Shown here: positions 4,071 to 50,724 of the stretch, piece by piece
Layout: the number at the start of each line of letters is the position of its first letter
Position numbering within the stretch: the first letter of the stretch is position 1
Assembly: GCA_000467715.1 (NCBI GenBank)
Contig: AJFK01000095.1
Location: 62,001 to 126,000, forward strand
Direction of reading: 5' to 3'
DNA: 64,000 bases
From: Hysterium pulicare CBS 123377
Taxonomy: Eukaryota > Ascomycota > Dothideomycetes > Hysteriales > Hysteriaceae
Notes under the pieces: model-generated
Database searches by the model: none
What the model saw: only the letters and a program-made list of their open reading frames with translations
Told to the model about the DNA's origin: nothing
Translations under genes and position numbers: made by a program

Positions 4071-4685
4071 AGCAGCTTTGTATTCTTTGTTTTGTGACTT
4101 GTTACGATTGTTTCGATATTGGATGGAAGTTCCATGTGTCGCTGAGTTTCTCCCGAGATGGCGTAGTCGTTGAGTTATACGTTGGTGAATCTTAACTCCG
4201 TCCGGCGTCGACGAAGCTACCTTTTAGTCTCGCGGGGTTTCTCCTGAGAAGGACTAGTTTGCTCTACTCTCGGCTAGGGAATGCTGACGCCGGGCCGATG
4301 ATGTCGGTGGCAGATCTTAACTCCAACCTCCGTCGACACCATCCGCAGCCTTCCCGAGACCATTCGTCTGGTCTTCTTGGTTTCACCCTATAATGTTTGA
4401 GCATAATACATGCGCATTATTAGTGTTAAGGGCAAAGAGATTAACACCGACCTCCGCCTAACAGACTACCTGGATTTGAGTGTGGATCTCGCACATGTTT
4501 CTCCCAAAAGGGTAGAATACCTCGAGGGGCAAAAGCAAAAGGTCAGGTGGCTCTATCTGCGCGGTTTGAGATGCAAGCTATATATAATCGTTCAGGTAGA
4601 CATCGCTGGAGCCTTTCAGACCAACCTTTCACCCATATTCCACTCTCCCTCGTCACTATCCGCACCGCACGTTTCTACCGTCAAA
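4071..4685. promoter_or_regulatory. divergent promoter, Zn2Cys6 gene / SDR gene
   Basis: Both neighbouring genes point away from this region. TATATATAA at 4579-4587 lies about 100 bp upstream of the dehydrogenase ATG and is a good TATA candidate for it. An open frame reads through from 4410 into the dehydrogenase, but its extra N-terminus spans the TATA and is unlike the family. Confidence 0.6.
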
Positions 4686-5642
4686 ATGGGCCTCCTGTAC
4701 TCACAACTCTTCGTGAAACCCGAGTACCCCACAGCCTCTTGTGCAGGCCAAACAATCATCGTAACCGGCTCCAACGTCGGTCTCGGAAAAGAAGCAGCGC
4801 GTCACTTTGCGCGTCTGGGCGCCTCCAAGGTCATTCTAGCTGTCCGTAATAGCAAAGCCGGAGAAGAAGCAAAGAAAGATATCGAAACTAGTACAAAATG
4901 TGGCCCCAATGTCCTCGAGGTCTGGACTCTTGACCTCATCTCTTACGAGTCTTGCAAGTCCTTCGCCGATCGAGTATCCAGGCTCCCACGTCTTGACGTC
5001 CTGCTGGAGAATGCCGGCGTTGCGGGTAGCAAGTGGTTTACCGCTGGAGGCCATGAACGTATGGTTGCAGTCAATGTCATTAGCACCTTCTATCTGGCTA
5101 TGCTGCTCCTACCGAAACTTAAGTCCTCCGCGAAAGAATTCGGTATTAGGCCCCGCCTTGTAATTGTATCGAGCGAAGTCCACAGTAGGACGCAGTTCCC
5201 GGAATGGAAAGAACCCAATACTTTTGCTGCTCTCGATGACGAGTCAAAGGCTCGAATGGAGGAGCGCTACCCTACTAGCAAACTCCTCGAAGTCCTTGCT
5301 GTCCGGCAAATGGCTCCGAAGTTGGAAGGAACCGGTGTCATCCTTAATATCCTCAACCCAGGTTTATGTCATTCGGAACTCGCTCGTGACAGTGGCATGT
5401 TCTTGCACATTGTGAAGTTCTTTCTTGCGCGCTCGACCGAGGTTGGCAGCCGTACACTGTTTGCCGCAGCCGTGGCGGGACCGGAGTCTCATGGAAAGTA
5501 CATGACTGATGCGCAAATAAATGACGATGCCCTTTCCGACTTCGTAAAGAGCGCGGATGGCGAGGAAGCGTCTAAGAAGGTCTGGAAGGAGTTGTGTGAA
5601 ATTCTGGAATCGATTCAGCCTGGCGTCACTAGTAATCTTTGA
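4686..5642 (+). CDS. short-chain dehydrogenase/reductase
   Basis: The 318-aa protein belongs to the short-chain dehydrogenase/reductase superfamily, NAD(P)-dependent oxidoreductases with a Rossmann fold. The nucleotide-binding motif TGSNVGLG is at residues 27-34, an NAG motif at about 109-111, the catalytic-type serine at about 162 and the active-site YPTSK at about 195-199. The layout (an extended N-terminus ahead of TGxxxGxG, a WxxRN-like AVRN after strand 2) matches the retinol-dehydrogenase-like fungal subgroup; the substrate cannot be told. I chose ATG 4686 rather than an upstream in-frame codon because the extra 92 residues cross the TATA element and lack family similarity. The N-terminus MGLLYS also fits the loose N-myristoylation pattern. 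Confidence 0.9.
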   Translation: MGLLYSQLFVKPEYPTASCAGQTIIVTGSNVGLGKEAARHFARLGASKVILAVRNSKAGEEAKKDIETSTKCGPNVLEVWTLDLISYESCKSFADRVSRLPRLDVLLENAGVAGSKWFTAGGHERMVAVNVISTFYLAMLLLPKLKSSAKEFGIRPRLVIVSSEVHSRTQFPEWKEPNTFAALDDESKARMEERYPTSKLLEVLAVRQMAPKLEGTGVILNILNPGLCHSELARDSGMFLHIVKFFLARSTEVGSRTLFAAAVAGPESHGKYMTDAQINDDALSDFVKSADGEEASKKVWKELCEILESIQPGVTSNL

Positions 5643-8640
5643 TTGAAATGAGGATTGTCGGGTACAGCGTTCCATTTGCACGTATCTCGTAGAACTCAAA
5701 CAGGTTTTTAAAAAAAGCCACATCCATAGACTCGCAGGTGCCGTATACTTTCATTCATAACTGTTCGCAGTTTGTGACGTGCGCCTGTGGTATTACTCTA
5801 TTCAGTTTATCGTAGAATGATTGTATGCAATCCAATTGACGCATTTCAGGGTTCATCCAAGCCTTCTACGTTGGCGGATATAATTGGTGCTTCTCGCTTG
5901 GTCAGAGGTATGAAGTTGTTTTGGTGAGTTTGGTCAGCTGGGCTAAGTGCGTGCCTGTCTCTCAAGGGTTTCGTTCACATTGGTAACCTAAGAAAGGAAA
6001 ATATACCGACTGATCCTGTAGGTGGAAATTCGAACTACTGTTGAAGCACGCAGACAGAATATGCACTTCGCACGTGATAGCGAAGCAGGACTCTGTGAAA
6101 GGGCTTGGTCCTCGTAGAGACATGGTAAGCTTTACTTTAACCTTTTTTTAACCTTAGATAAAGCAAAAGTGTAGCTCAAGTTGGTCACAGGAATTGGAAA
6201 CGAGGGTCTCGGGGCATTCAATACCAATCATGTCAATACTGCTTGGAGACATTTTGTGAGTGAAGACATGAAGCACCCGCAGAGCATTTGGCAAGGCACT
6301 GGCTATGATGGGAACATCAAATTTCTCTGCAAATCATCGACAATGGTCTTCTTCAAGATCTGTGATGAACCTAGTCTTCTTCATGCCCTCGCACCAGGCG
6401 AAGATCACAACGAAAACAATCTCAACGCCTATCCTTCCCTTCCGTTTCCACTCGCCATTAAGCGCTACTGGTTCGTCACACCCAGTTTTTGCCGTAGCTC
6501 ATTGGATCGCTCAGACACCTAAGGCTACAAGCTCGCGGGCGTAAAGAGGCGGACAGATAAACCCAAGGGCGCCGACTCGCCCTGACCCGTATGTGTTCCC
6601 ACTATGCGCTCGGAGGTTCATTTACTAGGCCAGCTCAAGTTTCGTTGTACACGTCAAAGTGAGCCAGCCATGCATGTGAACTTGCTTCTCTCTCAAAGAG
6701 AGTAAGCGTTGTCAGCGAGGTGTGAAAGAACCAGGTCGTCCGGTGGGTGGATCCCTTCGCCGCGAGGCAGCTAAGGATCATGCAACTTGACACGCAGGAT
6801 AGCACAGTACGAAGCCCTTTGAACTAATAAGACCCGAAGGCCAACCAGGCACCATGACTACTGCTCTCTGTTCCTGCTGCCGTGCCTGACAAAGTTTGTT
6901 CGGTCCAGTACATGCTAACGCTGGGCCAGACTTAACAGCCGTATCTCGGGAGAGCATGCCCTTACGCTTCGTCGGGATGGTGAAGAGACTGTTCAACCGA
7001 CTCTATTTGTTCTGAGCTAAGATCGGAGAGCTCGCGTACACGTAACGCCTGTGTGATAGCGGATCCAGCTGCTCGACCCTTGCGAGTGAGCCCCCAGTAG
7101 AAGATTCTGTGAGGCGGATGAAGAAGAAGAAGAGGAAGTGAGGGGCCAGCAAGAATTTCGTAGGCGAAAAGTGGCTGCCAAGGCACTAGGCTCGCTACGG
7201 TTGTCGTGGAGAAGGAAGTGAATGTTTATATTTCCTTAATTGTTATGGCTACGCGCAACGCGGACGCGGCTACGCGCGTGGTGAGTGAAGAATATTGACG
7301 CGACGAGATAACCCGACGTGACGGGATTGCTTTTGGCAACGACGCCTCTCAGCAGTAAAGTGAACGTGTCAACAGTCCATTCACTGCATACTGTGAACAG
7401 GGAGATCAACCACATGGAGTAATAATCCACTCCGAGTCGGACGCGTAAGAGCAACTGTAGGTGAGCAAGGAAGTTCAACGCATGATTAGGATGTCAATTG
7501 CCAAGAGTGAGCGAAGTGATTACCTACGATTTCATACTCAATAACTTGGTCTCTATGACACGAAAATTGATGGTTAAATTTGATCCTGGCCGGCGAAGCG
7601 GGAGACCCATAGAGCCAAAAGTAAAAATTGCAGATATTGATAATTTAGTCATTATTCTACCGGCTTTTTGTTCTCTCCATCCATTTTGTGGTGTTTGCAT
7701 GGTGAAGTGAAGTTGCGTAGCGCGATCTTGGAGTAGCACCTGAATAGGGGCGCAATAACTGAAAGCCGTAACCTCTGCTCGACGACGATGGTAATGAATC
7801 TTTTGAAAATGTTCTCATGAAATTCATGATGCAAGCTTGATTTCAGCATTGAGCACATCGTTTTTAAAACCTTCGCACATAAGCTCTTCCAGCCGGATAT
7901 TCCCTATGGTAACCCAGCCGTACCTTCACGTCCTCCTCCATCCGCGATGGACGCTATCGAAGGTCCGGATACTTTCAGGTCCAACTAAGCACCCTCAGTA
8001 CATATCTACCAACTTTCAGCAGTATGGCGATTTTTAACCACCTCACCTCTGAACAGACAGAACAATTCAAACTGGCATCAGCACCTACGGACCTCTGGCA
8101 GAATGTCACCTTCTCGATTTGATATGATTCCATCAAATCCTCTCAGGCTTTCGGATCACGATTCACCAGAACCAAAGAAACAAAACCAATGAGAATTCAA
8201 CGCAGAATCAAAGCAATACCGTTACCTCATTCAACGAAATCAACCATAAATGGGAGCTTTAACTATAATCACCGCTTTACACGTGGTTGAGATGTACAAA
8301 ATCTTCTTCAACAGCTCAATATTGCAGCTTTCTGCCGAATTGGAAACTTGGATCTCCTCAGTTTACCTCCAAGCCGGGCTTGGAGCCGGAGCCTACCTGC
8401 TCTCGGGTTGGTCTGCAAGTGGCTTGGAAGGATATGTTCATTATACGTTACGCTACAAAACTGTGGGCTTCGGTGAACACTACGACATCTACCTATCCAT
8501 CGATTTTAGGAGAAATATCTCAGCTGATTTCTCATCCGAGAAAGAGAAAACCGTCCGTCATGTCGACTAATTTACTGATGTCAAGTTCGTGATAAGTCTC
8601 ACTTATTTAACTTTCGTAAAGGCGCAATCAATTCTTGAGG
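5643..8640. other. gene-free region, about 3 kb
   Basis: I find no recognisable gene. Open frames up to about 113 codons at 6181-6544 and 8250-8592 have no domain, no convincing start and no exon structure. A GC-rich patch at 7247-7277 repeats GGCTACGCGC twice, 21 bp apart. The right edge runs into the tandem array described next. Confidence 0.5.
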
Positions 8641-8740
8641 ATCTCCACGGGAGTTTACTGAGTACGACCTGAGAAGGAAGTGTCGGGCATTCCGTGAGAT
8701 ACGCGTGGTGTACTGAAACATTTGCCGGTGATCCGCATCA
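8641..8740 (-). repeat. array unit 0, probable degenerate leftmost promoter
   Basis: GGAGTTTACTGAG at 8650-8662 aligns with GGAGTTTATATAG of the fifth unit and lies 484 bp left of the next TATA, the array's normal period. About 45 bp further right is a sequence whose minus strand reads ATCTCACGGAATGCC, comparable with the ACTCACACCGCTTCC box. The TATA itself is not intact. Confidence 0.4.
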
Positions 8741-9230
8741 TACGCTCTATCCAAGATTGCTCCTTCATATACCACCAGGCATGTCCATCATCATCAATCA
8801 TATATGATCTTCATTATCACTTAGTTGCCATCTTAAAAACAATTCCTCGAGCCTCCGAATTAAGCCATTCCGTCCCCCCCCTAAAAAAAACTTAAAAACA
8901 ATCGTCCATCATTTTGAGTCGAGTTCCAAAAATCTCACCACATTGGTGGCTATGCTCGTCAGATATGACGCAGTTCGACCGAACCACCCATGAGCACTAC
9001 CAGCGCGTCACGTTTGAGAGGACGGCAGCGGAATGCCCCAACGAAAATCGCTGGTGCATGGAAATGAAGAAAGGGCACAATCTAGGCTTCCGTGGTGCCA
9101 GTGGAGATACTGAAGGAGTTGAACGAAAGGGACATGGGGATTATATATCTGAGAAAGGAGCATGTGCCTTTCAACGAGAGGGGAAAAGGTAGATTTAAAA
9201 GGCGGTAAGGTCAGTAAGTGGCACATGATA
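8741..9230 (-). repeat. array unit 1
   Basis: Minus-strand TATATAA is complementary to 9142-9148. The CACATG variant of the E-box is at 9222-9227, and the TTACTGACCTTACCGCC box lies between. The first ATG past the TATA is at 9059 and opens a 20-codon frame ending at 8997. Confidence 0.55.
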
Positions 9231-9612
9231 TTGACACTACTCTTCATCGCCAACAAGAAAAGAAACTCAAGCTCTTCATCAATGAAGCTATCTCTTTCTC
9301 ACCTACTTCAACTTCTAATCCCAGACCTGCCTCTCTCAGCAAGCTTAGGTGTATGCGACGCTGCCACAACGCACATTCTCCTCCCCCACTCTCATCGACG
9401 ATGCTTTGGTGATGGTATAAAATATAGCTTGGATCTGAAACCTCCAAGTCAGCACATGAAGTCAAAATGCGGAACATTTCGATTACTAGTACCCATTCCG
9501 CGCAGGGATGCAGCGGGAAGTGTTTGTAGGGAAAAGAAAAATGCGGTTGAGGAAGCCTTATATAGACTTTAGAGACCCAAGCGCCGGTGAGTTTATGCAC
9601 ATAGCACGTGCA
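9231..9612 (-). repeat. array unit 2, with the longest mini-ORF (77 aa)
   Basis: CACGTG at 9605-9610, an ACTCACCGGCG box and minus-strand TATATAAGG (TATA core 9558-9565) are close together. The frame from ATG 9477 to stop 9244 encodes 77 aa ending in an alternating Leu/Glu segment. It is the only unit with an ORF of this length. Confidence 0.55.
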
Positions 9613-10100
9613 AAGCCGCCCATGCCAATGTCTTTCTTCATTCGACACTGGTTTGGAGAAGAAACGGGAAAACACCCTCAATTCTTGGAAGAGCTCTTGA
9701 CCGGACGCTTACTATAATCGTCATTAGAAAAATCCGGAGCCACCCAGTTCCTCTCCGACCTCCACATCTAAGATGTCCAAGCCTGAATCCTCCTATCTAA
9801 CCAACGATTTCGAGAGCGCTCTTCAATTCACCCATTCCAACACAAGCTCGCGGCATATGTTTTCATGAATCAGGACTCTTCTGCCCAGATCATAGGTTTT
9901 CTCTCTTGATGGAATCCTTCCCTCGAGGATGTTCCCACAGGCCGCTCCCATATATTGGGGGTAAGAGGGTAATTGGAAGCCACGAGCATTCCGGATATTT
10001 TCGCGAACTTGTCAAAAAGAGAAGAGTAGTTGTAGTATGGAGAATTATATAGCCTTTGAAGATCGCGAGATAAGGGGAGAAATGAGGCCACAAAAAGAAT
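9613..10100 (-). repeat. array unit 3
   Basis: Minus-strand TATATAATT (core 10045-10052) is followed by ATG 9951, 94 bp downstream, opening 42 codons to 9823. No E-box is kept. AACCAACGATTTC at about 9799-9811 is shared with the next unit at the same relative position. Confidence 0.5.
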
Positions 10101-10590
10101 AAATTGGGTTTTCTGAAAATTCAACGGACTATGAAAATCTTCACCATCATAGGCAGCTGATGCATACTATCACCATTCATTCCTGTCTCTCCACGCTTCT
10201 CCCACCAATACCCAAACCCGTCTACACTCAACCATTATCTTTTCGAACCAACGATTTCAGTCACATTCCACAGCCCTTCAAAACCACACGTAGTTAGGCT
10301 GTACGCTTCATGAAGCAGCAGTCTCTGCCACCACATGAAGTCCAACCCAGCACCTGTTGTAGTCTCCATGGCACACGCTACGAGCAACTTCCATCTTAGG
10401 CGGTGAAGGTGTCGTATTGATTTGTTGTCATGACCCCCAGAAAGGTGTCTGGGAGTGAGCGGATTTTAGTTTGGGGCATTCAAGAGGTGGAAGTTATATA
10501 GACATGGAAGAGGGTAAAAGAATGCCCAAGACAGCCTAGAGAGGAAGAAAGCGGTAAAACAGGAAGCGGCACATATGACTTATGGATAGA
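10101..10590 (-). repeat. array unit 4
   Basis: CACATATG at 10570-10577, an ACCGCTTTCTTCC box and minus-strand TATATAACT (core 10494-10501) precede ATG 10394, 100 bp past the TATA. The ORF has 28 codons to 10308 and begins MEVA, similar to MERA in the next unit. AACCAACGATTTC is at about 10247-10259. Confidence 0.55.
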
Positions 10591-11175
10591 CCATTTTCTG
10601 CCCATCGAGCTGTCCTCATCGCCTGACGACCAGCACTCTCGCCATCACCAGAACGTCCAGCGTATCATCATCGTCCATAGTCAACACACTTCAATCCTTT
10701 CTACTAGGGCTCGTCCTTTCCCCCTTGTTCTTACTGTTCCAATTTCTCCCGCAGCACTCGATCCATCAACAATGATCACATCCGTCACTCTCGGCAGATA
10801 TCGAAGCACACCACCACCCCTCCACCACTCTTGATTCCCCGTGCTTCAAGTCCCACAAATACCACTACTACCCCATCATTTTGATCCGACATTCTGATAA
10901 CACTCCTCAATTGCTCCAATCGCACATAAATACTAATCCTAGAATCACCATGGTATGAGACAAGACTCCCCCAATCTAGCATAGGAGCATTGTGGAGGTG
11001 TTATTGCTCGTTCCATGCCAGGAGGCGAGGCTTTGGTGTGACCGCCTGGACCGTGGAGATTGTCAGAGGTCGTTTGTACCTTTGAGAATTCGGGGGTCAA
11101 GGAGTTTATATAGAACCCAGGCACCAGGAGAAAGATGGAATAAAGGATAAGAAGCGGTGAGTAGAACACGTGATA
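10591..11175 (-). repeat. array unit 5
   Basis: CACGTG at 11167-11172, a TACTCACCGCTTC box and minus-strand TATATAAAC (core 11106-11113) precede ATG 11016, 90 bp past the TATA. The ORF is 23 codons to 10945, starting MERAITPP. Similarity to unit 6 continues through the distal half (ATGGACGAYGAT and GGGAAAGG stretches). Confidence 0.6.
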
Positions 11176-11695
11176 CTTAACTTAGCCTTCAGCGGCAAGG
11201 AAACGTACTTCGCCAATTGAAGGATCCCTTCATTATTATTAGCGTTTCTTGTCTCTCACCACCATCATTAGAAGCTAAACCTTATCGTCGTCCATCACCC
11301 GTACCACCGCCGGCCCTTTCCCTTCATCTCCCCGGTTTTTCTCCAAAAGTTCAAAATTCAAATCCTGAAGTCCGATATCACCCCAATTCTTCCAGTCCCA
11401 CATCGAATGATTCTTCCGTCCGTGTTGAAGTTAGACTATGCTTCCGTTCCCACACCATTGACCGCTTGTATCCTGGATTATTGCTCGGCCGGTATAGCAG
11501 CCCAAGAAAAAGCTGACACCCACATAGTGTACCGCGGGCGGGCATTTTTGGTAAAAGACACCCCAAGCCAGGCAAGAGCGCCAGAGGTGTTGATCGTGCT
11601 ATTTGGAAGTTGGGGGAAGGGGTTTATATAATTGTCGGACAGAGAGGAAGAGAGTTCAGAGAAAGAAAAGAGTAGTGTAAGCATGTGAACCTTAC
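11176..11695 (-). repeat. array unit 6
   Basis: CATGTG at 11682-11687 and minus-strand TATATAAAC (core 11624-11631) precede ATGTGGGTG at 11525, 99 bp past the TATA. The ORF has 15 codons (MWVSAFSWAAIPAEQ) to 11478. The region just before the ATG shares an ACCAAAA block with unit 7. Confidence 0.6.
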
Positions 11696-12175
11696 ATACT
11701 CCGTATTAGTAAAGACGGGCTGAAGAATTCTGAGTATCATCACCGTCAATACGGGCTGAGATTCACCATCATCACCATCGCCACCATCGCCACCATTACA
11801 ACCTTTTCCTTTCTCAGTCCTTATCTGACTCAGAGCTCAGTAGCCAGAACCAGCACCAGCCCACAATAAGTTGTATAGTGTCGGGGTGTTTTAATTTGGC
11901 AACGTGCCCTAGCTATCCTGCTCCCGATCCCAAGGCAATTGTAGGGTTCATAAGTCGTTCTTGCTCATCCCGCAAAGAAGACAAGGACCCCCACATTCGT
12001 TAATACTGCTCTTCCTTTTGGTAATAACATCCTCTCAAAGCCCGCAAGGGTGTTAGCAGGTTGCTTGTACCGTTGAGGACTCGGGGGAGGAGGGCTTTTT
12101 TGTCTTTTAGAGCCAGCGCAAGGCGACCTTAGAAGCGAGAGGAGCGGAAACGGTATGAGTAATCCCGGCAAACCT
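11696..12175 (-). repeat. array unit 7, TATA lost
   Basis: The GATTACTCATACCGTTTCC box is nearly identical to that of unit 8, but where the TATA should be (about 12095) the minus strand reads GACAAAAAAGCCC. ATGTGGGGG at 11996 is 99 bp from that position and opens 27 codons to 11913, starting MWGSLSS. Confidence 0.6.
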
Positions 12176-12665
12176 GAAACTTTCATACCCCAAGCCAGTA
12201 AAAAGGGGCCGAATTATCCTGATTATTATCGCCATCACCACAAAAAGCTGAACATCACCACCCAAACATTCATGGAGTCCTTCTATTCCCACTTTGCCTC
12301 CCCTCCCCCTCCCCCCAAAGAATCGAAACCCTATTCAAATCTCACCACCAGCTCCAGTCCACCACCACACATTTGTCCTACGCGTCTTGATAGCTCTCTC
12401 CAAGATTTCCCGAGTCCCCGCGGCTAAGAGGGATGCTATCGTTTCGGCTCGCTAATATAGCAACAACGCACCAAGTGCTCCCACATCTGCGTGATCCGTG
12501 ACAGGTTTTTACAAAGACTCGAGCGGCCAGGGAGAGAGCTAGAGAAGTGATTGTGTCGTCGACAGCTTGGGAACGAAGGGTTTATATAGAATTTTAGAGG
12601 CTGTAAGAAAGACGAGGGAGTAGAGATGAGGAAGCGGTGTGAGTAATCACCTTGCACGTGAAATA
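12176..12665 (-). repeat. array unit 8, best-preserved promoter
   Basis: CACGTG at 12655-12660, GATTACTCACACCGCTTCC next to it, CTCTAAAA and then minus-strand TATATAAAC (core 12582-12589) form the clearest promoter of the array. ATGTGGGAG at 12486, 96 bp downstream, opens 16 codons (MWEHLVRCCYISEPKR) to 12436. Confidence 0.6.
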
Positions 12666-13048
12666 TCGTTCATTTGTAAACTCCATTTCCGACGGAGTAA
12701 AGAGACGGAGGAGTCTTATGAAGACAAAGATACTTGTAAAGCCACGGAAGCAGGAACGACATAGATGAGGCAGGAAGGGAGAACATTTGGTATACAGAGT
12801 CTAAATCTACAAGTGAGATAGAAAAATATATCACGGGTCTTCGGCCATCCAGTCTACCAGATTTCATGTTCCTGAGGAGACCGGGTAGATAAACGCCAAC
12901 GCTATGCAAGACCCATCTAAAGGAAACCCCAAAGAGAGTAAGTAGATTTTACAGGGTTAGGAATTAGACAGGAGTAGAGAAGAAAAGGCGCGACAAATCT
13001 ATGTAAAGAAAAGAGACCCTCCTACAGAACACTAGCAAGAGGTGTACC
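12666..13048. other. intergenic, between array and MRS2
   Basis: No gene and no further array unit was recognised. This is the presumed 3' flank of the MRS2 gene, which ends at 13049. Confidence 0.5.
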
Positions 13049-15026
13049 TCACATCTTGTTCAACTTCTCATCAACCTCACCCTCCACCCCCTTCAACCTC
13101 TTAACCAACTCCTTCTCCCTCTTAATAATATCCCCCAGCGCCTGCCTCTCTCTAATTCCCGGAATTGGCGTCGGCATTCTAGCCTCCCCACACCCTGCCT
13201 CACCCCTCTCACCACCCCTTCCATCCCCCCAATCCGTCCACCTCCTCTTCTTATGCCCCAGCAACAACCTATCTCTAGAAGGAGCCGATCTCTCACCACC
13301 CCACATGCTGACTCTCTGGACTTTTCGCAGCTTGGTGAGGCCGTAGGCGCAGATTATGAAACCGAAGAAGGTGCACCAGACTGAGATGGCCGTGAATCCG
13401 ACGTCGGATTCTTCGATGAAGTTTTTGAGGTTCATGCCGTAGAGGGCGGCGACGAAGGTGCCGGCTGTGATGCCGAGGGTGAAGATTGAGAAGCGGAGGT
13501 CGAGGAGCATGAGGGAGTTGCGGTTTGCATCCAAGATGGCTTTGACACTATAGTGGACAATTTGATTAGTTTGCAATGGAGCGGCGAAATGGGAAGGGAA
13601 TGGGAAGGGGGCAAAGCAAAGCAAATGTTTAACTGGCCAAACATAGTGGATAAAGGCTCTCGGACTGAAGACTTACATTTCCTCTGTGTTCCTAATACTC
13701 GACACCAAATTCTCCGCCGCTTGTACGATTTCATCCGCAACTTTGTGATAAGATTCCAGCAACATCTCCACTTCAGTGTGATCGTCGTCCTCTCGAGTCT
13801 TGCCCTCCGCTTTCTCAGTCAAATACATTGACGAGAGATCATCATCTGCCTCCAGCAACTCCGTCAGAGAGTCTCTAACCAACCGCGCTTTCTGTTCGAA
13901 TGTACCGAGTTTCTTGGAGTAGATAAGCAGGTACCGGAGTTTATCGCGATCGATATCTTCCTCGAGCTCTCGCAGAACCCGCACTACAGGCTCACTGACA
14001 CCCTCGAATTCGCTTTCTAGGCCAAGAGTAACACTAACGAGGACGGATTCCAGCGCGCGAAATTCGTAGGCTAGAACGCCATTTGCGGGCGATTCTTTCT
14101 GGTGTAGTTTTCCTTCCAGATCATACATGAACAGTGACTGGGAGTAGGAGTCCGTACTACCATATGCATCGAATACGAGGACACGATTATGCTTGATTAA
14201 GACTCGGAGGTGAAGAAGATTGATTAGGATCGCGGAGGGGCGGACGAGGATATGAGGGAGAAGAGAGGAATCGATTTTGCGCAGGTCGCGAGGAAGGAGA
14301 CCATACTGTGATCAACATCTCTTATTAGCATGTCATCTCTCAATTGCGTTCCATGCGGAACATCTAGCCTTCCTTATCCCATGATGCAGGTATGCGGGCA
14401 CAGCATGAACTCACCTTGGCAATCAATTCACTCTTCTTGAACTCCCCATTGACAAGTGTAACATTCCCACCTTCATCAAACTCCGTACACCTCAACTTCA
14501 ACTCGTTAGTCGGTCTCGAAACCTTCCCCAATCCCCCATTGTCATCCAAAAAGCTCGCCAACGGCGGCAAATGGTGCAAAGAACCCGTCTCCTCGGACCC
14601 TTTAGGCTTCTTCAGGCCCCACAGATTCCACACATTATACCGACTTCGAGTCGTGAACGATCGTCGGAGCTCGTTGGTCACATTCGTGATCTTTGTGCAG
14701 CTTGTTGGGCGATAGGTGTGGGGTGCAGATGTTTCATGCTTCGGAGTCCGGGGAAGGATTTTTTGGGGTGAAGTGTGTAGATTCCGGGTGTGAGGGATGA
14801 ATGACGAGGTATGTTGCCATCGCGGAATAGAGTCGATGAGTCTCGCGTTTCTCGGGGAGAACGAATTGGGCCAGCGATGCGTTGTCTTGGAAAGAAACCT
14901 GCTGGGTTGGTGTCGAGGTGTTCGGGAGCATTGGTTCGTGGCGACAGGACATTCGACTTGCGCTCGTAGAAACTTCAGCAGTCTAGGCGACGGTGCTGTG
15001 ACATTATGAAGCAAAGTTGTCTTCAT
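13049..15026 (-). CDS. mrs2: mitochondrial inner-membrane magnesium channel Mrs2
   Basis: Mrs2 belongs to the CorA superfamily and carries Mg2+ into the mitochondrial matrix as a pentamer; this role is from the family. Three exons (14415-15026, 13677-14305, 13049-13547) join in frame to 579 aa. The introns are 109 and 129 bp with GTGAGT and GTAAGT donors. The Arg/Ser-rich N-terminus MKTTLLHN... is a typical mitochondrial presequence. Exon 2 holds the long helical matrix domain, and exon 3 the first membrane helix with the selectivity motif YGMN (Gly-Met-Asn at 451-453) and a second membrane helix. After it comes a charged C-terminal tail of about 100 residues rich in Gly/Arg, longer than in yeast. 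The start at 15026 was chosen because no earlier in-frame ATG precedes it. It is divergent from the small gene at 15280. Confidence 0.93.
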
Positions 15027-37083: not shown

Positions 37084-38172
37084 TCAATCATGTCCACGGA
37101 GTGCACTAGGGAACTCCCCAGTTCGATCGTACTGCTTGCGTGTACCTGGATCTGAGAGAACATCGAATGCTTGGTTGATAATAGCCATCTTCTCGGTAGC
37201 ATCATCCTTTTTCTCCAGCTTGACGCGATCAGGGTGATTCGCCAGAGATAATTCACGGTGCGCCTTCCTGATTTCGTCAGGGGATGCTGTCTTTGAGACT
37301 CTAAGTGTTATGTAGAGATCCACCTCTGGTCTATTCGTGACGCGCGAAGAAATCATGCGTTCGTATTCGTCCAGCTTCTTAAAAAATCTATTCAAGAGAA
37401 GAAGACCTCCAGTTTGGGGAGGAGCAGAACCGAAGCAAGTTTTATATGCTTCGAAAAATGCATTCTCATCATTTTTTGAACTCTTGTATGCTTTATAGAA
37501 GGCCTTGCGGAACTTATCACTTTCGATGTCCCCAAATCGTGCAGAGGGACGATGTGAGCTAGAGTTGAATGACCCATGATCCACTTCTTTCGGCGGCGTG
37601 AAATCGGGGTGGAATGGATTGGAGGCATCATCACGTCTCCTCTCGAACGTGGAAGTAGTGTCAGCACGACGGGGTTTAGTGGAAGGAGGTGAGCTTTTGT
37701 AGGTGCTCTCACGACGAGGGGGTGCGGCGCGTCGGGGTGTTGGTTCGCTTTCAGAGCGCTGCGGTCCCGAGCGAGATAGATGATTGTATGAACGGACTCT
37801 CGGGTTTGGTGGTTGAGTTGCCTGGCGGAGAGGCCTGTGCGGATAATCATCGAACTCCTTGTATTTCTTTGTGAACTGTGATCTTGAGTTATGTGCTGGA
37901 GTTCTTACCTCAGGACCGTGGGAACAATTATCATTATCAAATTGCTCGGGTTCCCTTGCAATATTTGGCCTTGAATTACGTGGCTGTGTTCTGCTCCGAG
38001 ACGGGCCATGGCGATAATCATCCTCATCGTGATATTCTTCCCTATCGTAGCCTTCCACTCCAGGGTGATCATCGTAAGGTGGATTGTGCTGGATGAATTC
38101 CATAGGGTCATGCGAGGTTCGGATTTCAACGAAAGTACCGGGGGCAGCGCAAATTGTGATGTTTCTATGCAT
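37084..38172 (-). CDS. J-domain (DnaJ-like) protein, J domain at C-terminus
   Basis: The 362-aa single-exon protein carries a J domain in its last 75 residues: DLYITLRVSKTASPDEIRKA, then the HPD signature at 313-315, then the DVLSD and KQYDRTG helix. J domains stimulate Hsp70 ATPase through HPD. The first 200 residues are Arg/Pro/His-rich and disordered. Residues about 200-265 form a helical block (FRKAFYKAYKSS...AFFEAYKTC) that also occurs in the neighbour. The J domain is normally N-terminal in DnaJ proteins, so this layout is unusual. The closest relative seen is the next gene (38850-40031), which has the same order of parts and the same RTGE-PSAL ending, so the two arose by tandem duplication and have diverged strongly. 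Confidence 0.85.
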   Translation of the reverse strand: MHRNITICAAPGTFVEIRTSHDPMEFIQHNPPYDDHPGVEGYDREEYHDEDDYRHGPSRSRTQPRNSRPNIAREPEQFDNDNCSHGPEVRTPAHNSRSQFTKKYKEFDDYPHRPLRQATQPPNPRVRSYNHLSRSGPQRSESEPTPRRAAPPRRESTYKSSPPSTKPRRADTTSTFERRRDDASNPFHPDFTPPKEVDHGSFNSSSHRPSARFGDIESDKFRKAFYKAYKSSKNDENAFFEAYKTCFGSAPPQTGGLLLLNRFFKKLDEYERMISSRVTNRPEVDLYITLRVSKTASPDEIRKAHRELSLANHPDRVKLEKKDDATEKMAIINQAFDVLSDPGTRKQYDRTGEFPSALRGHD

Positions 38173-38849
38173 TGTATTCTTCGACTATGGTGCAGTTTAG
38201 AACTCCATATGGCGGCGTTACTGCAGAGGTATATTGTGGAACGAGGTTAGGAAAAGCTTGAAGAAAGGTGGACGTTTTAGAAAGTTAAAATATGCATGGA
38301 AAACTTGAAACCGTATTATGTAGATTTGCAGTCATGGTGCTCAAAGCGCTAACAGTCATACCACATTGACACGATAGGCGTCGCTAATCGTCATGGCGAA
38401 ATGCATTATCAGTTCAAGAAGAGCGGTGATCTAGAGGCGGAATCTACACGATGAATGGAATCAAAAGCATGTGCGGGCATTTTTGGTAGCTAATTGAAAT
38501 TAACGATAGTAACATTAGAAGATTAAAGTTGAATACATCATTCAGTAATTAAAGATTCATGAATGAACGGCTTACACTTGTGACTCGCGGAAATTAGACC
38601 ATCGATCTCACCCCACAAAGACTATACCGTTCTTCTATACCTTTGTGACTCCTTTGCCGCCTTTGTCTATTCGCGCTCTTGCTAATCAGTTCGAAGACTC
38701 CATCCCTAAAGGGAAAAATGACTACTCGATTTCTTGTAGGCGATCAGCCTTGACTGAGTATATTGTGCGAAATGCCATATCCGGAGCCACAAATGTAAAC
38801 GTACTCAGATACGCTAAGGATCTCCCCGTTCATATCTACGAGTATCAAC
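38173..38849. other. intergenic between the two J-domain genes
   Basis: No gene was recognised. The region is AT-rich and presumably holds the promoter of the first gene and the 3' flank of the second. Confidence 0.5.
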
Positions 38850-40031
38850 TTAAAGCGCGCTCGGAAGCTCACCTGTTCTATCGTACTTCTCCCGCAGTTT
38901 TGAATCCGAAAGAACATCATAAGCCTGGTTAATGCGTGCCATTTGCTCCGTTGCAGCTTGTTTCTCCTCCGGCTTAGCACGATCCGGATGATGTTGCATG
39001 CATAACTTACGGTGTGCCTTCTTGAGATCGTCTTGGGAGGCAGACCTTGGAACACCAAGAACTTTGTAAAGATCCTCTTCTGACTTATTCGAGGGCTGTT
39101 GCTGGGGCATCCCACCGCTAAATCCAGAGAAACCATGGGGCCGGCTGTTGTAGCTCCAACCATGACCAGGGCCGCCGCCATAGAAGTTCTGATGATGCCG
39201 GCTGTTGTTAGGACGTGGACCACCGGTAGGATCAGGATCATATCCAGGCTCGTAAGTGTTAGTATCTTCAGGAGCATGGCCGTCCGAGGTAGAACCACCA
39301 ACCCTACTAAAAAATTCCTGGAAAGACTGGAAACTCATGGCGGGATTAGTACCACAGCAAAACCTATGGGCAACGATAAATGCTTCGTCCTTAGTCGCTC
39401 CTCTGATCCGTGCATTTTGGAAGACTCTAGTAAAGCGATCGCTTCTAGCATCACTAGGCCGCTGGGACTGTTGGCGTGAATTGGAGTTTGATGACCGCGA
39501 ACCTGCTCTACCGGCGGTAGGATCGGAGTTAAATCGATCGCCTCGACGGTCAGCATAGTTTCGATCAGAGGCCGGCCTATCCGGACGAGATTGATGCTGA
39601 CGAGAACGGCTACCAGCGGAAGTGCTGTCACGATGGCTGGAGTTGCTGTTATGCCTCGAAGACTCACTCTCAGAGGGTCGCCGTCGGGCGCGGAATTGAT
39701 CGCTATGCGAACGACCCCCAGGATCTCGTGGATCAGAAAAGGGAGTAGGCCCATACGGACGCCGGAAATCATCTTGAGTGTGGCGACGAGGGGGCGAAGA
39801 TCTAGAGTGGTCTTCGAAGCCAAAACGCCCTTCGAAAGCTGAGCTACCAAATGGCGGACGGGTGCGAAATGGGTTTGGACTAGCTGGAGGAGTGGTCTCA
39901 TATCCATCATCTGAATCACCGTAGTCGCCATCCGAGTAATCGTAATGAGGATCGTACCGAGGATTGTAACGAGGATCATAGCAAGGATCGCCCCCCCGAG
40001 AAAACATTCCTTCACGTGGGTTGTAGGACAT
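38850..40031 (-). CDS. J-domain (DnaJ-like) protein, tandem paralogue
   Basis: The 393-aa single-exon protein starts at ATG 40031. The N-terminus has short tandem YDPRY-type repeats and an acidic Tyr/Asp stretch, then a long Arg/Ser-rich disordered segment. A helical block (FTRVFQNARIRGATKDEAFI...) corresponds to that of the neighbour. The J domain is at the end: DLYKVLGVPRSASQDDLKKA, HPD at 348-350, DVLSD and EKYDRTGELPSAL. A co-chaperone role with Hsp70 is inferred from HPD. TATAAAAG on the minus strand at 40113-40120 lies about 85 bp upstream of the ATG. A GTGAGC after the RTG codons could be a donor, but the neighbour reads through the same place, so no intron was called. Confidence 0.85.
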   Translation of the reverse strand: MSYNPREGMFSRGGDPCYDPRYNPRYDPHYDYSDGDYGDSDDGYETTPPASPNPFRTRPPFGSSAFEGRFGFEDHSRSSPPRRHTQDDFRRPYGPTPFSDPRDPGGRSHSDQFRARRRPSESESSRHNSNSSHRDSTSAGSRSRQHQSRPDRPASDRNYADRRGDRFNSDPTAGRAGSRSSNSNSRQQSQRPSDARSDRFTRVFQNARIRGATKDEAFIVAHRFCCGTNPAMSFQSFQEFFSRVGGSTSDGHAPEDTNTYEPGYDPDPTGGPRPNNSRHHQNFYGGGPGHGWSYNSRPHGFSGFSGGMPQQQPSNKSEEDLYKVLGVPRSASQDDLKKAHRKLCMQHHPDRAKPEEKQAATEQMARINQAYDVLSDSKLREKYDRTGELPSAL

Positions 40032-40112
40032 CTTAGCTGTTGGAGTTGAGTGTAGAACACAGTGAGAAAGGTTGATCTGAGTGTGTATTGACGAGACCTA
40101 AGGGGAGCATCG

Positions 40113-48715: not shown

Positions 48716-50724
48716 CTATACGCTACCCTCGCCGTGATCACGGTCATCTGGTCGATGACTCTGGTCAACCTCTTCATCCCCATCCTCCTCCCTCCACCTC
48801 TTCCTCCACCACTTCAATCGAAACCAATCTCCCACCTTATCCTGCCCTCCATCACCATCTCCTAAACCCCATCCTTGACTGCCCCTCCTCCGTCCAAGAT
48901 CCAAAAGCCCACTCTCCCCTCCATCCTCATCATCGGCGCTCTCATCCACTGCGTCCCGGCCTACAGGTCTCTTCCCAGACGACGCAGATCCTCCATTACT
49001 CTTCCCCATACCCTCCCACCAACTACGTCTCCTCAATTGCCCAAGCCATTTCGAGTCCTTCCGTTTAGGATGCGGTAAAGTTCCCGACCTGGGTCTACGT
49101 TCTAGATCCGCGGATCTACGAGCTCCGGCTGGAGAGCGGAGAGAAGAGGTATCGCGATCGTTAAGCTCGTCCCATATCTCGTTCGTTTCTTCCGAGATAG
49201 TCATCCTGCGTCTTCGTGGCGTCGGTCTTCGAGGGCTGGGGCTGGCTCTGGGACTTTGCTGCAGGGACCGCTTTCTCGCGCTGGGATTGGATGAATTCGA
49301 AGCAGTGGGAGACTGGAGTGAAGGACGCTTTTTGACTTTTGAAAACACTGGAGCGGGAGCAGTCGTGTGTCGTGCAAGTAATGGGGTCGTTTCGTCGGTG
49401 CTTCCTCGCTTGCGTTTGAGGTTCTGTTCGACGGCTGATCCGTGAGCGCCGGGAATTGCTGATTCTACGTCTATGATGTCTTCATCCTCTTCTTCCTCGA
49501 GGGTTGGGCGGACAAGACCAATACCTGGAGTTAGGAGCGTCTGAGGGGGCGGGATGGTGCCTGAGTGTTTGAGGTGGTGAGTGGGAGATTGAGGTTCCTG
49601 GGCGGCTGTCGGTCGGCCTTCTTCAAGACGCCAACTCAATGAAAAGACGCCTGCAAGGAGAATTACAGTACCGAGAGCGATGAGCCCGGCATGAAGGGAG
49701 GTCAGTCGAGAGGACTGATGGAAGTAGATTAGGCCGTCTATGATTGCGATGATATTGTAGATGCAAAAAACAAGTGGGTATAAAACGCTAGTGCTGCAAA
49801 GTTTGAGTCCGCGGTGCATGTAATAGAGTTGTGTGAGGGCGAATGCCACGAGGCCGAGTAGGATTACCCACGACTGCCAGCGGTTGAATTCATTGTGCCG
49901 GTCGACAATCGTACGGACGAGGAGTTCGACGGCGCTCTTGGCTATCAGGAGGGAGTGTGCAGAGAGGATGCCGCTCACGCAGCCAAAGCCCAAGCCGCGG
50001 ACAAGTCGAAGTCGTGGAGTAGGTCTTGGATAGAGACGTTTTAGAAACCAGTTGCCGATGATGAGGGCAAGAACTATGATAGCAGTGCCGGACATCCATA
50101 GCAAGAACTGACGTCTAACAAGAAGTGCGAGTAGTTGATCCAGATTATGTGACGGCTCTGAAAGAGACCCAAATATCCCAATCAGCAATGCGCCAGCTGC
50201 AACAAGTATGGTTCCAGTAAGGGAGTATCGGGTGAAAGGTTCGCTGAGGATGATGGAGGCGCAAATAGAGTTGAAGACGAGACCGGACTGTCGCTTGTTA
50301 GCAACTTGATCGGGAAAATAGTATGAACGCTTTCATACCGCTTGTAGTGTGGAGAGAACTGGGAGTGGGAGAGTGGTGATTTGAATGGTGCTTCCCACAA
50401 GGTTCGCCACAATGAACATGCCCATACCAATCTATTGCAAGTCAGTCGCTGGACCCAAGCACAGTGCACTCCACTTTGCTAACCTGCCATCTCCGCCGCC
50501 GATATGGTGGCCGCCGCTCATAGTCATCCTCTTTCTCTTCTTCGAGTAGATGGGATTTGCGCTGGAGGGTCAAGCCGACGCTCTGAATACTGGTGGAGAG
50601 GAGCCCGACGATCACTCCAAGCTGGGCAATATAGATCAGTACTATGGGCTTCCGACTCGGCGTGTTGTGGGCGCTCCATGCTTAAACTCACAGTAATGCT
50701 AGCCCCCACGGAAAGATCCACCAT
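48716..50724 (-). CDS. NIPA-type magnesium transporter (DUF803)
   Basis: Four exons (50692-50724, 50484-50648, 50339-50431, 48716-50287) join to 620 aa; introns are 43, 52 and 51 bp. The N-terminal 330 residues have about nine hydrophobic segments with NIPA-family strings: VLIYIAQLGVIVGLLSTSIQ, GMGMFIVANLVGS, SGLVFNSICASIILSEPFT, SAHSLLIAKSAVELL, YYMHRGLKLCSTSVLYPLVF and IYNIIAIIDGLIYF. NIPA proteins are Mg2+ transporters of endosome and plasma membrane; that role is from the family. The C-terminal 290 residues are a Ser/Arg/Glu-rich cytosolic tail, long for the family but usual in filamentous fungi. The first exon codes for only 11 residues. Its ATG is about 530 bp from the divergent V-ATPase gene. 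Confidence 0.88.

Follow-up and report, generated by a model that had tools for sequence, protein, structure and literature searches.

The window analysed here is a 64 kb stretch of the genome of Hysterium pulicare CBS 123377 (C80:62001-126000), and all genome-wide searches were run against its own assembly of 37.2 Mb in 596 contigs. Within this window, the open reading frame (ORF) of an SDR protein (4410-5642, plus strand) and a gene for an MRS2-like protein (ending at 13049, minus strand) are separated by about 7.3 kb of DNA without sustained coding signal; a fungal Zn2Cys6 domain is likewise encoded near the array described here. This array occupies about 8.77-12.66 kb of the interval and consists of eight old units, A to H, duplicated head to tail on the minus strand (Table 1).

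Results

A sequence-only reading of this stretch had described TATA cores recurring about every 490 bp, one of which, at about 12095, was thought to be lost. Seven TATATA cores were located on the minus strand (starting at 9142, 9559, 10046, 10495, 11107, 11625 and 12583 in plus-strand coordinates), and the place expected for the remaining one, at about 12096 in unit B, was found to be degenerate (ACAAAAAAG), which confirms the loss. TATATAA is retained in the seven other units. The successive spacings are 417, 487, 449, 612, 518, 471 and 487 bp, so that the proposed period holds as a mean (492 bp) over a range of 417-612 bp. Read along the minus strand, the order of elements is an E-box, a ACTCACCGCTTC-like box, a pyrimidine-rich spacer, TATATAA, a CT-rich leader, a body and a GATG-rich 3′ block. 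The E-box is CACGTG in A, D and G, CACATG in C, CATATG in E and CATGTG in H. Inspection by eye of the upstream boxes that had been assigned to most units placed a CANNTG hexamer in A, C, D, E, G and H and none in B and F, and an ACCG box in A, B, D, E, G and H and none in C and F.

The units were compared in register, and their similarity was scored against dinucleotide shuffles. Units A and B were alike upstream (z 5.9) and the pairs A-C (z 6.4), B-C (6.0), B-D (5.4) and C-D (5.0) were alike around the TATA box, so that promoter or leader reached z 5.0-6.4 in five of the six pairs drawn from A, B, C and D; similarity between E and F was seen in their bodies (z 5.2). When units were placed out of register, the observed mean was reached by none of 150 placements for each of the segments -115..-10, -9..+90 and +251..+400, and by 0, 1 and 0 of 150 once the TATA box had been excised. 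The middle, +91..+250, was not significant (15 of 150 placements, or 31 of 150 with TATA excised). The eight units are therefore genuinely related, F, G and H weakly so. Pooled over segments, z was 3.9, and the top out-of-register placement (82.8) slightly exceeded the observed value (82.6) because overlapping windows inflate the out-of-register null.

Leave-one-out hidden Markov models (HMMs) searched against the 64 kb window recovered units A, B and D at E-values of 3e-5 to 9e-8. Unit B serves as an internal control here, as it aligns along its whole length and was recovered (E 8.6e-8; 96 bits to a model including B) although its TATA box and E-box are gone; its promoter is probably dead. 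Support for C and E comes from pairwise scores and the 3′ block, and for F and H from pairwise scores, TATA box and position; F, G and H are weak members of the array, and the limits of the units are approximate. A ninth unit suggested at 8656 was not upheld, since its promoter resembled one unit of eight (B, at 1/100 shuffles) and its downstream part one of eight (C, at 3/100). Tandem Repeats Finder, which considered periods up to 500 only, did not report the array. Gapped identity among the units (0.77 versus 0.76 in shuffles) was uninformative and no divergence value is therefore given.

The GATG-rich 3′ block, at about +300 to +360 from the TATA box, is a new element of the unit. In the band +296..+361, which was picked after the positions had been seen, GATG occurs 17 times and in seven of the eight units, against 3-4 occurrences expected in total (0.40-0.55 per unit); the GATG words of unit H lie at +315 to +358. 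When a block HMM was built from any three of A, B, C and E, the fourth was the best new match in the 64 kb window in all four cases (E 0.0006-0.022). The four-unit model gave E-values of 0.49 for D and 2.6 for G, with unrelated places starting at 0.75. Within the array, the middle is the least conserved segment, behind both promoter and 3′ block. Across the 42-unit set defined below, TGATGA was counted 28 times at +220..+379 and four times at +0..+219, and no enrichment of this word was seen after 54 coding ORFs (12 versus 20 TCATCA). Genome-wide, TATATAAA followed by TGATGA some 310-340 nt further on gave 30 matches (28 distinct) versus 11 in the control.

Table 1. Units of the array and the interval that holds them (window coordinates).
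Feature	Position	Strand	Elements and remarks
Unit A	12204..12664	-	CACGTG 12655-12660; ACTCACACCGCTTC box; TATATAA 12582-12588; leader; body; 3′ block 12204-12285
Unit B	11715..12180	-	TATA (~12095-12101) and E-box lost; 3′ block 11715-11799
Unit C	11251..11692	-	TCACATG 11682-11688; TATATAAA 11623-11630; 3′ block 11251-11322
Unit D	10639..11176	-	CACGTG 11167-11172; ACTCACCGCTTC; TATATAA 11106-11112; longer unit; weak 3′ block 10639-10678 (E 0.49)
Unit E	10116..10576	-	CATATG; ACCGCTT 10549-10555; TATATAA 10494-10500; 3′ block 10116-10199
Unit F	9650..10125	-	TATATAA 10045-10051; no E-box or ACCG box; GAAATCGTTGGTT in body common to E; weak, limits approximate
Unit G	9243..9612	-	CACGTG 9605-9610; ACTCACCG; TATATAA 9558-9564; very weak 3′ block 9243-9282 (E 2.6)
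Unit H	8770..9232	-	CATGTG; ACCGCCT 9200-9206; TATATAA 9141-9147; weak, lower limit approximate
Interval without sustained coding signal, holding the array	5650..13000	.	SDR ORF to end of MRS2-like gene

The sequence-only reading had also suggested a search of the genome with the unit consensus. A promoter-consensus query recovered only three of the eight array units, so that a DNA search would miss diverged relatives, and the whole array used as a DNA query found no copy besides itself at E<=10. Sister loci were picked by TATA words. Same-strand series of TATATAA sites with E-boxes were found at C506 (seven), C139 (seven) and C497 (five), mostly amid short ORFs, and same-strand TATA pairs at C95, C323, C300 and C556. 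The word CTATATAAAC is not enriched in total (114 versus 107 in the control); at least six same-strand pairs within 1 kb were found among the 100 of its 114 matches that were listed, compared with 0.18 expected for all 114. Three of these pairs came from three C506 sites and one each from C95, C323 and C436. From the same-strand series we kept seven of nine TATATAA sites at C506, seven of nine at C139, five of six at C497, two of three at C323 and two of two at C95; C436, C26 and C23 contributed no units. With the units of the present array these make 31 array units, and the addition of 11 units picked by their E-box pattern gave the 42-unit set, from which sites L059-L062 were left out.

Counted on the 31 units not picked by E-box, the 11 others being excluded, an upstream CACRTG/CAYGTG E-box was present in 19 (14 of 23 sister units and five of eight in this array) versus 1.0 +/- 1.0 in shuffles. 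The ACTCACCGCTTC-like box is particular to this array; at C139 a ACTCAGCAAAC-like box takes its place by eye. Similarity within loci exceeded similarity between loci in all four segments (leader pairs above z 3: 17.4% versus 5.2%), and several loci therefore grew by local duplication. Between loci, promoter (0.60) and leader (0.68) stood above mismatched-segment controls (-0.10 and -0.18) and bodies hardly did; bodies are alignable in some sister pairs. Ours is one among several such arrays in the genome.

Two further loci deserve mention. At L024 (C556:1-2153), near a contig end, same-strand E-box/TATA sites with 457 bp spacing have TGATGATGA words downstream of both, and a third E-box/TATA site lies on the opposite strand; this is possibly another array. 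The final ~80 nt of L060 (C208:40943-41580), 3′ of an E-box/TATA promoter, hold a run of AGGTAAGT words resembling tandem 5′ splice sites.

The combination of E-box and TATA box defines a promoter class that extends beyond the arrays. TCACRTG-N31..61-TATATAAA has 47 genome-wide matches versus five for the reversed pattern. In this array the strict pattern is found in C and D only (2/8); A (gap 66) and G (TGCACGTG, gap 40) are near misses, E and H carry other CANNTG words and B and F lack any. One of the 47 matches, C180:70039, lies about 100 nt upstream of a match to the U2 small nuclear RNA (snRNA). CACGTG-ACCG-TATATAA gave nine matches versus two in the control, three of them within this array; another (L025), a looser form of the E-box/TATA module, lies about 40 nt upstream of a U4 match. 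Ten other stretches or parts bearing the E-box/TATA class gave no Rfam match, in a scan whose six hits were all U2 copies included with them.

Six diverged copies of U2 snRNA were observed in this genome (L026-L031, on C387, C569, C87, C180, C40 and C159; 80-139 bits), and those in L027-L030 contain, by eye, apparent spliceosomal-type introns (GT ... GCTAA ... AG) near their 5′ end. No 5.8S match was present in the assembly. A GGCAACCGCCAAGCC-like element was seen upstream of the TATA box at the U2 gene of L026 (~1370-1390) and at the L021 site (~1500-1580), and loosely also at the U4 gene in L025 (~1500-1590); it is possibly an snRNA promoter element.

Coding signal was sought in the interval and in the units. 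No run of windows between the SDR and MRS2-like genes sustained a hexamer coding score; isolated 150-nt windows scored 0.15-0.26, with the maximum at 7600 (minus strand), and two adjacent windows in unit F scored 0.17-0.18. The eight units contain no canonical introns and the ORFs in seven of them are no longer than in shuffles, the exception being a 77-aa ORF in unit G that is longer than those of 60/60 shuffles. Translated similarity between units was lower in sense (31.4) than in antisense (38.4). For the 42 units, the median best hexamer score was 0.07 in sense and 0.08 in antisense versus 0.32 for 22 held-out coding segments, and 11 of 42 units in sense and 11 of 42 in antisense exceeded the coding 10th percentile. 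The mini-ORFs attributed to the units by the sequence-only reading therefore found no support in hexamer, intron/ORF or translated comparisons, nor in the frame comparison given below. Folding was at chance (mean minimum free energy z 0.04, with one of 42 units below -2); windows below -2.5 numbered 8/165 in the array versus 2/80 in controls, and RNAalifold on A, B, C and E returned -3.3 kcal/mol and 10 pairs.

Discussion

We consider it somewhat better than an even chance (a probability of roughly 0.57) that the array is a set of tandemly amplified short non-coding RNA genes, transcribed by RNA polymerase II (Pol II) from snRNA-like promoters, seven of which have an intact TATA box. The snRNA genes have an untranslated Pol II product. 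As the promoter of the units resembles those of the U2 and U4 genes of the same genome, which likewise have an E-box upstream of TATATAA, the product would most likely be a short untranslated Pol II RNA; the units differ from these genes by matching no Rfam snRNA family, by showing no excess of folding and by their strong divergence. The analysis itself shows the duplication, the retention of promoter and 3′ block, the lack of coding and folding signal, the sister loci and the likeness of the promoter to those of snRNA genes; the transcription of the units, its start and end points, its activator and its function are what we infer. Transcription would probably start some 30-50 nt past the TATA box, in the CT-rich leader, and each intact unit would give an RNA of about 300 nt that ends close to the 3′ block of that unit and short of the next promoter. 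The E-box suggests as likely activator a basic helix-loop-helix factor, which we take to be of the Cbf1/USF kind. Taken with the sister loci, these features point to a dispersed family of RNA-only genes.

Since promoter and 3′ block have outlasted the middle of the unit in this array, selection most likely acts on transcription at these places or on a diverse pool of short RNAs. As the body gives no sign of coding or folding and is the part least retained here, the selected trait would likely be transcription at that place and time, or a varied RNA pool. That selection favours these more than any one RNA sequence is the least secure element of our interpretation.

Several observations weigh against this interpretation. 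The leave-one-out HMM gave G at E 0.62 and missed C, E, F and H. Genome-wide, the ACCG-box/TATA pair is not enriched (14 versus 34 for the reversed control), and CACGTG with ACCGCTTC occurs eight times versus five. After TATATAAA, TCATCA gave 25 matches (24 distinct) versus six in the control; TGATGA is hardly commoner and the element is therefore not a strict mark. Coding-like features exist in the sister arrays, as C506_11806 has a 93-aa ORF with a coding-like score of 0.34 and C506_11030 contains a 151-aa ORF. In 34 of 42 units the first ATG lies at +68..+106, versus 19.6 +/- 3.3 in shuffles, a clustering that this interpretation does not explain. Lastly, bodies are not everywhere free to vary, since the pair C139_2674 and C139_3240 shows its greatest similarity in the middle (z 8.9).

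A more specific form of the proposal, to which we attach only tentative belief, is that modular promoter cassettes (E-box, TATA box and leader, from about -115 to +100) and 3′ blocks have been tandemly amplified at many loci, where they would drive hundreds of nucleotides of largely sequence-free RNA whose bodies drift or are swapped, the cassette itself being retained. Two cases suggest that promoter and end are reused in this way, with bodies that can be exchanged. The E-box/TATA sites on C112 (L061) and C454 (L062) share 93-97% identity over 160 nt from the E-box, beyond which gapped identity falls abruptly to 0.42-0.57. The C300 pair is strongest in the leader (z 9.8) and the 3′ part (z 7.2) and is outside the five best middles. 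The conserved middle of C139_2674/3240 speaks against cassette reuse as a general rule. If cassettes of this kind were confirmed, what they deliver would be transcription as such or a diversified pool of RNAs. By eye, the end of the leader common to C112 and C454, CTAAC..AG, resembles a branch point and 3′ splice site.

The main rival to RNA genes is a DNA-only role, which we judge unlikely: the E-box/ACCG/TATA blocks would act as a tandem regulatory array, by titrating factors, opening chromatin or insulating the SDR gene from the MRS2-like gene, and any transcripts would be by-products. Such an array would account for the promoter half being the best conserved part, for a body without coding or folding signal and for the strong E-box enrichment. 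Factor binding, however, needs neither TATA boxes nor a 3′ block at +300..+360, and E-box/TATA promoters also stand directly upstream of the U2 and U4 genes.

It is clearly improbable that the units are decaying remnants, now without function, that an old tandem repeat or mobile element left behind. Their high divergence, the lost promoter of unit B, the lack of a long ORF and the full-length likeness of some C139 pairs, as expected of plain old duplicates, would be consistent with decay. Against this, TATA box and E-box are kept in most units while the flanks, aligned from the TATA box, are about as similar as expected by chance (a comparison biased by the choice of units via TATA), the units show no RIP-like dinucleotide bias (repeat-induced point mutation), and similar arrays with other sequences exist at other loci. 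No other copy was found at E<=10, in a DNA search so insensitive that it misses most of the array units themselves.

Slightly less probable still is a fast-evolving orphan family of small peptides, translated from the ATG found at about +70..+106 past the TATA box. The ATG clustering and the lengths of the first-ATG and longest ORFs, both of which exceed whole-body shuffles at 1/200 each, looked positive at first sight; the frame control gave no support for translation. The first-ATG frame stays open for 29.8 codons, as against 29.9 and 31.2 codons for the two remaining frames of the 42 units, so that the excess over shuffles is probably an effect of composition. In addition, A stands at -3 of the first ATG in 13 of 42 units only, sense hexamer scores equal those in antisense, peptide similarity is no greater than in antisense, and the gaps with a length divisible by three number 31 of 132.

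A cluster of independently transcribed small nucleolar RNA (snoRNA) or snRNA genes is very improbable despite the snRNA-like promoter, TGATGA-like words near the 3′ end and the precedent of the H/ACA snoRNA genes of Neurospora crassa, as Rfam 15 covariance models gave no match at gathering score in the window (the best weak match in 8000-13000 being SNORD113, 22.4 bits against a threshold of 36, E 0.62) and one tRNA only in nine sister stretches, folding is at chance level, and the two RTGATGA/CTGA pairs 45-130 nt apart in the 4.1 kb of minus strand at 8600-12700 both lack a 4-nt terminal stem. Among the three options raised by the sequence-only reading, an RNA cluster is accordingly the best supported, the regulatory array remains as a rival and the peptide family is unsupported.

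Fungal parallels to the proposed short Pol II RNA genes are known. In N. crassa, independent transcription is the dominant mode of H/ACA snoRNA genes, and these would share with the array units an intergenic position, a short RNA product and a putative Pol II promoter of their own (PMC2780460). The array units differ from fungal snoRNA genes in having no C/D boxes with a terminal stem, no H/ACA-like folding excess (overall folding only was assessed, the H/ACA motif itself not being searched) and in their tandem duplication as whole units. Should the units act in cis, they would resemble cis-acting fungal long non-coding RNAs in working close to protein genes in a way that tolerates sequence change. 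The prt and nc-tgp1 transcripts of Schizosaccharomyces pombe act in cis on their neighbours. Both are named in the review PMC8113380. Each of the two is one transcript whose target gene is known, whereas the array comprises up to eight tandem units and recurs at several loci. In those parts of the open-licence literature that were available, we found no account of fungal tandem arrays built from such units.

It is by a conserved product that short non-coding RNA genes are usually identified; here promoter and 3′ block outlast the middle. If transcribed, the array would offer a natural and repeated way to ask whether transcription as such can be under selection, and would help to account for intervals in which annotation may be empty. 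With the promoter signature, such arrays are easy to look for in further fungi and in RNA-seq data that already exist.

Other features of the window

The window encodes two different proteins of magnesium-transporter type, one MRS2-like (13673-14311, minus strand) and one NIPA (48716-50332, minus strand). Viral and prokaryote collections searched with the MRS2-like protein yielded no fungal relative. The adjacent ORFs at 37084-38184 and 38850-40097 (minus strand) both have a C-terminal DnaJ domain and are probably a tandem pair. A PDB search with five ORFs of the window gave one match, to an epoxide hydrolase.

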